A stretch of 64,000 nucleotides of DNA from Thermogemmatispora carboxidivorans. GTDB taxonomy: Bacteria > Chloroflexota > Ktedonobacteria > Ktedonobacterales > Ktedonobacteraceae. Positions 3,201-5,794 of the stretch are shown piece after piece (position 1 is the first letter of the stretch; every line of letters starts with the position of its first letter). Made by a program: the position numbers and the translations under genes. The stretch is taken from positions 5,370,327 to 5,434,326 of the forward strand of contig NZ_JNIM01000001.1 in assembly GCF_000702505.1 (NCBI RefSeq). Reading direction: 5' to 3'. The notes under the pieces were generated by a model that was given only the letters and a program-made list of their open reading frames with translations, was not told the DNA's origin and did not search any database.

Positions 3201-3443
3201 CAGTCCAGCGTAGTGGTTGGAACCCGGCCAGGCCCAGACCAGGGCGCTCTTGATTGACAGGCTGACCTGCCTGTGGCAGAATGGGGCTGCTCTCCTCGCC
3301 CGCGCCAATCGTAGGGCCGTCGTGCCGTCGTCGCACCATTCCACCGATGGCGCTCTGGCTCTTCTCGCTCCGCAAGGACAACACAGCGAGGAGGGAAGGA
3401 GAACTTCCGTCAGACGCGAGAAGACTCAAGATCGTTGAGCGGT

Positions 3444-4841
3444 ATGATGCATCAGAAATCGTCTCAGAGCCTCCTGGACGCGGCTATAGAGCAGAGTCTA
3501 CCCAAGGATATCCTTTCGTCAGGCGCCAGGCTCCTCGAGCAGGCAACGCTCTTGCTGCAAAAAGGCTGGCGCACATCTGCAGGGCGCCTCGACTTGCAGA
3601 GAAGGGAGCGCACCAGCCTCTTTCCGTGGCGCGGCCAGTTCTCTCCACAACTGGTCGAGCTGCTTTTGCAGCGTTATGCAGAGCAGGGGACCGTCGTCCT
3701 GGACCCCTTTGTGGGCAGCGGCCCGCCAGGGCCTGAGCTGCTACGCTGCCGACATCAATCCGGCAGCGGTGGCGTTGTCGCAGACAGTCCACTTTGTTCG
3801 CCTGACGCCCTCCGAACGCCAGGATCTGATCCAGGAGGCGGAGTCTCTTTTAAAGAAAGCGCTGCAGCCTGCCTTTATAGATCTTTTCTCCCTTAGTGAT
3901 CTTGAGCCTGGGATTGATGACTATTCCCACCCCAAAGAAGAAATCATGCTTTCTCTGATAAAAGATACAGATAATCATCTTTTAAGAATTATACTAGTTA
4001 ACACACTAATGAAATATTTTGAAAACAAAAACAAAAAGGGGAATAACTGGTATACATCTTTCCATGAGCTGGTTGCGATTATCAGAAATCTACCCTATAG
4101 TGTTGCCCAATATCATATCTTTCACCATGATGCCCGCTCCTTACCGCTGGCCAATACCAGCGTGCAGTTGATCGTGACCTCTCCACCCTACATCAATGTC
4201 TTCAACTACCACCAAAACAATAGACCTCTCATGGAGAGATTAGGCTGGAATCTTCTTACCGTTGCTCAGTCCGAGATTGGAGCCAACCGCAAACATCGTC
4301 AAAACAGATTTTTAACAGTGATTCAGTACGCTTTAGACATGCTAGCAGCCCTGCGAGAAATGCGTCGCCTGCTTGCCGAGGATGGGCATCTCATCATTGT
4401 CATTGGTCGCGAGTCAACCATCCGTGGTGTGCGGCTTGGCAACAGCCGGCTGATCACCGCGCTCGCGCTAGGAGGGGCCGGTCTAGAGCTGGCCTCGGTC
4501 GAAGAACGGAAGTTTCTCAATAAGTTCGGGGAGGTGATCTACGAGGATGTGCTTCATCTGACACCGACCTCTGTTCCCCCTGCCTTCAACGATGAACTTG
4601 CCCGCTCTTTAGCTCTTTGCCTCCTGAGAGATTCCTTCCAGCAAAACCATGCAGATGCACCCACAAACCAAGAGATCCTGGAAGCCATCAGCAAAGCCCG
4701 CAGCGTTGATCCATCGCCTCTCTTCTGCAAAGCCATCCCTACCGTGAAGAGGTCTTTCAGCTATTTATCAACTATATAGATCAATTTCTCTCTCAAGAGA
4801 CACTGGATGAGGCCACGGTCCTTGATCAGGGTTACTTCTAA
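3444..4841 (+). pseudogene. Frameshifted site-specific DNA methyltransferase
   Basis: Three reading-frame segments together make one adenine/cytosine-N-type DNA methyltransferase. Segment one (from about 3444) carries FPWRGQFSPQLVELL and the AdoMet motif DPFVGSG, then loses frame near 3720. Segment two resumes at QGLSCYAADINPAAVALS and includes the catalytic motif TSPPYINVFNYH (about 4180). Near 4700-4725 the frame shifts back to the first phase and ends with HPYREEVFQLFINYIDQ and a TAA at 4839-4841. Relatives normally have about eight residues (GTTLLEA-like) between DPFVGSG and the GLS segment; these are missing here, so the first lesion looks like a deletion rather than a single-base slip. 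The stretch 3930-4050 is visibly AT-rich compared with its surroundings, suggesting foreign origin. No restriction partner is nearby. Sequencing error cannot be excluded. Confidence 0.65.
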
Positions 4842-4953: not shown

Positions 4954-5577
4954 ATGTCACGCATCCCACCGGTTGAAGACAGCCAGTTCTGGCCCGAGGA
5001 CAAGGAGAGCGACGCCAGCCAGGCCTTTGCTACCATGCGCGACCTCTTCCGCGTCATGGCCCACCGGCCCGAGATAGCGCGCCAGACCATGCAGCTGCTG
5101 CAAACAGTCATGCGCGGCGGCAGCGTCGAGCCGCGCTTGAAAGAGCTGCTGGCGATCCGCGTCTCTCAGGTCAACTACTGCCATTATTGAATGGCCGCCC
5201 ATACTGCCCTGGCAGGGCAGCTAGGCGTCAGCGAGGAGCTACTCGATGCCCTCTATCACATCGATACTCACCGCCATCTCTTTACGGCGCGTGAGCTGGT
5301 TGCATTGCGCTTCGCCGAGATCATGACGACCGCGGCCCGCGACATCGATGAAGCGCTGTGGGACGAGCTCCAGGCCCACTTTGACGACGGGGAGATCGTT
5401 GAGCTGGCGATGGTGATCGGCCTCTTTAATGGCTTCAACCGCTTCGCGGATGCTCTTCAGATTGAGCCACCAGCCCGCTCTCAGGGCCAGGGAAAGGCTC
5501 AAGAGGGCAGCGGCGAGAGGAGGAAGGATACGGAAGCCTATGGCCACGAGCGAGGAGCAACTGAAGGCCCTGATTAA
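4954..5577 (+). CDS. Probable selenoprotein: AhpD/CMD-family peroxidase with in-frame TGA (Sec79)
   Basis: Two frames in the same phase (4954-5190 and 5191-5577) abut at a single TGA (5188-5190). Read through, they give a 207-residue carboxymuconolactone decarboxylase/AhpD-fold protein. Before the TGA the sequence is LKELLAIRVSQVNYCHY, and after it MAAHTALAGQLGVSEELLDALY. The family's redox motif is Cys-x-x-Cys-x-x-x-His; here it is Cys76-His-Tyr-TGA79-Met-Ala-Ala-His83, so the stop falls exactly on the second, peroxidatic cysteine. The second half (LVALRFAEIMTT ... ELAMVIGLFNGFNRFADAL) is an intact AhpD repeat, with no sign of decay. A hairpin fitting the bacterial SECIS lies at 5204-5220. 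The likely role is thiol peroxidase or disulphide reductase in the cytoplasm. Alternatives are a TGC/TGT-to-TGA nonsense mutation or two split products. The 3' end overlaps the next gene by 38 nt. Confidence 0.75.
5204..5220 (+). promoter_or_regulatory. Candidate bacterial SECIS hairpin
   Basis: CTGCCCT (5204-5210), loop GGC (5211-5213) and AGGGCAG (5214-5220) form a perfect 7-bp stem. The loop begins 20 nt after the TGA, and both of its first two bases are G. Published bacterial SECIS criteria ask for a loop 16-37 nt after the UGA with a G in the first two loop positions. The element lies inside the coding sequence, as in other bacteria. Confidence 0.6.
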
Positions 5578-5794
5578 GGACCTGTACGACTTGTCACGTT
5601 ACTTACACGGTCGCGGCGAGCGGTCTTTGAAACTCGCTCGCCAGTTCGAGGAGCACGCCCAGAGCGATCCCAGCAATCGCGAGTTTGATCTGACTCAGGC
5701 GCGGATGCTCGACTACCAGCATCACATCTGGCACGAGATCGGGAATCTGGTGGACCGCCTGCTGCGCCAGTATGATCGGCCAGGCTCTGCTTGA
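5540..5794 (+). CDS. Hypothetical 84-aa helical protein
   Basis: The start ATG at 5540 has an AGGAAG a few bases upstream and lies inside the 3' end of the AhpD-like gene, so the two are translationally coupled. The product (MATSEEQLKALIKDLYDLSRYL...) is hydrophilic and predicted to be nearly all helical, with heptad-like spacing of Leu and Arg (RSLKLARQFEEHA, RMLDYQHHIWHEIGNLVDRLL). No catalytic motif is visible and I do not recognise the family. If the AhpD-like protein is a peroxidase, this may be an accessory subunit, but that is only a guess from the overlap. Confidence 0.6.
   Translation: MATSEEQLKALIKDLYDLSRYLHGRGERSLKLARQFEEHAQSDPSNREFDLTQARMLDYQHHIWHEIGNLVDRLLRQYDRPGSA

Follow-up and report, generated by a model that had tools for sequence, protein, structure and literature searches.

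Positions 4954-5577 on the forward strand of the window, the 64,000-nucleotide stretch of the Thermogemmatispora carboxidivorans genome that was analysed, hold an AhpD/CMD-family gene predicted to encode a selenoprotein, with 207 codons read through an in-frame TGA and a TAA stop at the end. From the ORF reading of the window, two frames (4954-5190 and 5191-5577) share the same phase and the TGA at 5188-5190 (forward strand) is their sole interruption; the residues across the join are N-Y-C-H-Y-(TGA)-M-A-A-H-T-A-L-A. The initial annotation had described two same-phase frames split by a single TGA within C-H-Y-(TGA)-M-A-A-H, free of other decay on either side; both statements are confirmed, the frame being intact on both sides and no further disabling mutation being seen in the gene besides the TGA. 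The redox motif C76-H-Y-U79-M-A-A-H83 (CxxUxxxH; 5179-5202, forward strand) satisfies the C-x-x-C-x-x-x-H active-site motif if selenocysteine (Sec) is taken as Cys, and C76 and residue 79 are invariant in alignments A2 and A3. A putative bacterial SECIS hairpin follows on the same strand at 5204-5220, and a companion gene of 84 residues (5540-5794, forward strand) overlaps the end of the selenoprotein gene by 38 nt. Upstream, a DNA methyltransferase (window 3435-4779) looks split across two frames near 3680-3720, with VVLDPFVGSG in one frame and the rest in another; a relative at locus L144 (362-1897) is a single long frame.

The read-through protein matches Pfam CMD (PF02627) over columns 1-82 of 84 with 60.9 bits (E 1.2e-16, cut-off 23); the first half alone matches 40 columns with 30 bits, and the second half alone has no match in the Pfam profile search. 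The full CMD domain is recovered in Pfam only from the joined product and from neither half. The protein also scores 50.4 bits against the AhpD core model TIGR00778 (cut-off 27.8). The AlphaFold2 model, for which 25 relatives were aligned and Cys was placed at the Sec position, has a mean pLDDT of 83 and an all-helical core above 90; its PDB fold neighbours belong to the AhpD family, so that the family identity initially proposed holds in both profiles and in the fold. The nearest solved relatives are PA0269/AhpD of P. aeruginosa (2ijc, 2o4d, 7xw1; phmmer E ~1e-16, core rmsd 1.6-1.9), in an alignment that spans the TGA; these proteins, however, have Cys where the window protein would have Sec. 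In PA0269 and in the orthologs with TGC/TGT, the second Cys of CxxC stands opposite the in-frame TGA. The word peroxidase is a family name here; non-peroxidases such as the debrominase Bmp8 share the fold family.

Orthologs with TGA at exactly the residue-79 codon are present in 42 of the 47 genomes of Ktedonobacteria, a class of bacteria from soils and hot springs, at 43 loci in four families, and the codon is kept in all five congeners searched, the close relatives to which the initial annotation had pointed. One genome of the class (G018, CP126532.1) has TGC instead, and four have no ortholog (G003, G006, G007 and G017); the first three of these also lack selB and tRNA-Sec at the thresholds used, while G017 is 58% complete. 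Each genome that carries a TGA ortholog has selB, tRNA-Sec or both. G001, at 96% completeness, has a TGA ortholog and SelB yet no tRNA-Sec above the Rfam cut-off; its tRNA-Sec may be atypical or may fall into a gap of the assembly. Outside the class, Acidobacteria MAGs and one Chloroflexia MAG show the TGA plus the same hairpin; in the wider phylum, one family of seven genomes has a Cys form (TGC/TGT) with no hairpin, despite having selB. The Cys row of G018 nests within the Sec clade on the tree (clade support is moderate, 82/91), and its Cys form is therefore most simply read as a Sec-to-Cys replacement.

The TGA could be a plain stop created by nonsense mutation, leaving a dead gene; TGA is a normal stop in these genomes, where 20 of the 43 orthologs terminate on it. 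Conservation already refutes a pseudogene, a reading of vanishing probability, as the TGA sits at the same codon in 42 genomes from four families with the frame intact on both sides, and the hairpin is under strong selection. The extra internal stops that some orthologs seemed to have (two TGA, TGA plus TAA, or TGA plus TAG) were rejected, these being terminal stops. It is also highly improbable that AhpD is split here into two proteins by termination and re-initiation at TGAATG. An ATG does immediately follow the TGA in the window and at 29 of the 43 loci, but the next codon is AAG, GAG, AGG, CTG or ATC at the other 14, which means that it is not a second start that is conserved at this place; the break would moreover fall within the redox motif and the CMD domain, the Cys orthologs are fused single chains, and a TGA-linked hairpin that is lost with Cys would be left unexplained.

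The hairpin itself, CUGCCCU-GGC-AGGGCAG, has a stem at 5204-5210/5214-5220 and a GGC loop at 5211-5213, the first loop G being 21 nt downstream of the TGA. In this place (+14 to +20 and +24 to +30 after the TGA), each of the 43 TGA loci has a stem of seven pairs and a GGC loop. Across these loci, 300 of 301 stem cells (99.6%) are paired, compared with 146 ± 7 expected when the codons of the same genes are resampled synonymously (3000 draws, maximum 175 pairs); the GG-loop hairpin originally noticed shortly 3' of the TGA is thus real and far above chance. Three pairs show changes on both sides (UA/CG 30:4, CG/UA 19:16 and UA/CG 26:9) and there are no one-sided changes, although pairing-cell counts of this kind are non-independent events in related species and the independent changes are fewer. 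The residue encoded by the 3' arm varies between Gly (GGG), Arg (AGG), Lys (AAG) and Glu (GAG), and for each variant the Ala-Leu codons that form the 5' arm have changed synonymously to match; as the residue varies yet pairing is kept, it is the RNA and not the protein that is under constraint. At the hairpin site the Cys ortholog of G018 reads CCGCGATTGCCCGGCAG, which forms 3 of 7 pairs and does no better than its own null. Conservation of the hairpin, raised initially as a point to be checked among relatives, is therefore seen as compensatory changes across the 43 TGA loci, and the sole Cys ortholog in the class is without it. An outer stem placed 3' of the hairpin (A1 columns 35-43) is 68.6% paired and was rejected. 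On its own, folding energy tests the hairpin poorly, as the 36-nt minimum-energy fold of several orthologs is a competing structure.

The host genome, a single 5.6-Mb contig whose closest relatives with a name are Thermogemmatispora aurantia and T. tikiterensis, encodes SelB (355 bits, cut-off 242), SelA (574 bits, cut-off 268) and SelD (383 bits, cut-off 125) by profile search, together with a tRNA-Sec with the anticodon UCA (69.3 bits, gathering 47); all four components of the machinery, for which the initial annotation had proposed a search, exceed curated cut-offs. A second tRNA-Sec match (51.8 bits) was rejected as tRNA-Leu(UAA). The host SelD has an in-frame TGA of its own (S-C-A-G-U-A-A-K), as does the formate dehydrogenase alpha subunit FdhA at ~1,628,000-1,631,800 of the contig (N-Q-A-R-I-U-H-S-S-T-V-P-G-L), which is probably, judging from its sequence, a second selenoenzyme of this genome. 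Because of the in-frame TGA in the AhpD-like gene, SelD and FdhA, at least three host genes look Sec-containing. The search for further selenoproteins in the host genome was made by family (SelD, FdhA, CMD), and beyond the gene at 4954-5577 it found no other CMD gene with a CxxU-type TGA.

Recoding of UGA to other amino acids by suppressor tRNAs is known elsewhere, and a suppressor might insert Cys or Trp here instead of Sec. The chance of this is slight, however, as the genome has SelA, SelD, SelB and tRNA-Sec(UCA), the hairpin occupies the usual place of SelB-dependent bacterial SECIS elements, and TGA is the ordinary terminal stop in many orthologs. With the machinery and the hairpin directly observed, we infer, with near certainty, that 4954-5577 is one AhpD-like selenoprotein gene in which selenocysteine is inserted at the UGA at 5188; this reading is supported by the conserved TGA, the covarying hairpin, the machinery in the genome and the want of an ortholog in genomes without selB and tRNA-Sec. 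Loss of the hairpin in the Cys ortholog lends further support to the selenocysteine reading first put forward for this TGA.

During decoding, tRNA-Sec(UCA) would be charged with Ser and converted by SelA with selenophosphate from SelD; SelB would deliver the tRNA-Sec while bound to the SECIS hairpin at 5204-5220 as the ribosome sits at the UGA. Judging from the family, Sec79 is most likely the peroxidatic or attacking residue and C76 the resolving one; a Sec79-C76 selenenylsulfide would form and be re-reduced by a dithiol donor, as for the CxxC pair in AhpD, with peroxide as the presumed substrate. Orthologs of the f3 family (L092, L093 and L095) have CxxUxxxQ, with Gln replacing the motif His; the catalytic set is consequently incompletely conserved and the His is not universal.

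AhpD-like selenoproteins with CxxU, of COG2128/TIGR01926, are already known from marine metagenomes and a number of genomes (PMC2398784, PMC1794560, PMC13188914, PMC9312934), in line with the initial annotation's statement on bacterial Sec proteins of this kind; the GOS group 'AhpD-like 1' is one such CxxU set assigned to COG2128/TIGR01926 (PMC2398784; reviews PMC13188914, PMC9312934). The window protein has the same CMD fold and CxxU motif and a borderline assignment to the family: with Cys substituted for Sec it scores 81.7 bits against the TIGR01926 curated cut-off of 81.8, a shortfall of 0.1 bit; the published proteins, however, come mainly from marine metagenomes and a few bacteria, whereas those described here belong to Ktedonobacteria. 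The best NCBIfam match (E 3.3e-25) is a Sec family, NF053654 'YciW-related (seleno)protein' (GroundWater_YciW), which is matched by all 25 members of alignment A3; the window protein scores 88.9 bits where the cut-off is 310, and so is not a member. A CxxU AhpD-related domain is also shared with NF041238 AhpD_rel_CFYUT (Sargasso Sea hypothetical protein 1), a model 357 columns long to which the window protein scores 51.8 bits (cut-off 175). No NCBIfam equivalog model reaches its cut-off for the Ktedonobacteria family. The searched literature on Thermogemmatispora or Ktedonobacter and selenocysteine yielded no report of a Sec AhpD-like gene in Ktedonobacteria, nor was a description of its class-wide conservation or of the companion gene found in the literature searched.

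At 36 of the 44 orthologous loci, the Cys locus included, the companion gene immediately follows the AhpD-like gene on the same strand, some of the loci without it being contig ends; its product is ~80 residues long, and the measured spacings between the two genes range from -50 to +81 nt. The companion protein is modelled as an antiparallel two-helix hairpin (pLDDT 94), and profile searches find no credible family for it in Pfam or NCBIfam. Matches to PMC2NT, Cas6_N and other Pfam families are weak (best E 0.007) and differ from member to member, and those to PDB folds are generic coiled coils, none with E below 0.28; both sets were rejected. The companion was not found at the Acidobacteria or Cys-family loci examined. 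Its adjacency suggests that the selenoprotein is probably made and used jointly with this helical-hairpin protein.

Distant CMD paralogs at further loci of the class (L096-L101, L105, L107-L113 and L117) also have TGA at the second Cys of CxxC, in the motif types CGYU, CEYU, CEFU, CHYU, CQYU and CAYU, most with some hairpin downstream. From these CxxU paralogs, CMD-fold selenoproteins appear to have expanded in Ktedonobacteria. It is a tentative proposal, to which we give slightly less than even credence, that the locus represents a Ktedonobacteria-specific two-gene redox module, in which a Sec AhpD-like enzyme is paired with an undescribed helical-hairpin partner, alongside an unreported expansion of CMD-fold selenoproteins with at least six further C-x-x-TGA types.

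That the gene at 4954-5577 adds a new lineage to an already published kind of Sec-containing AhpD is very well supported. A conserved selenoprotein family is thereby gained for a class whose selenoproteome is seemingly undescribed in the searched literature; without a dedicated model, annotation can be expected to report it as split or truncated in all of the genomes. The companion is a candidate partner protein for testing, and the natural Sec/Cys pair within one class, with the SECIS element kept in one form and lost in the other, offers a handle on the benefit of selenium to the enzyme.
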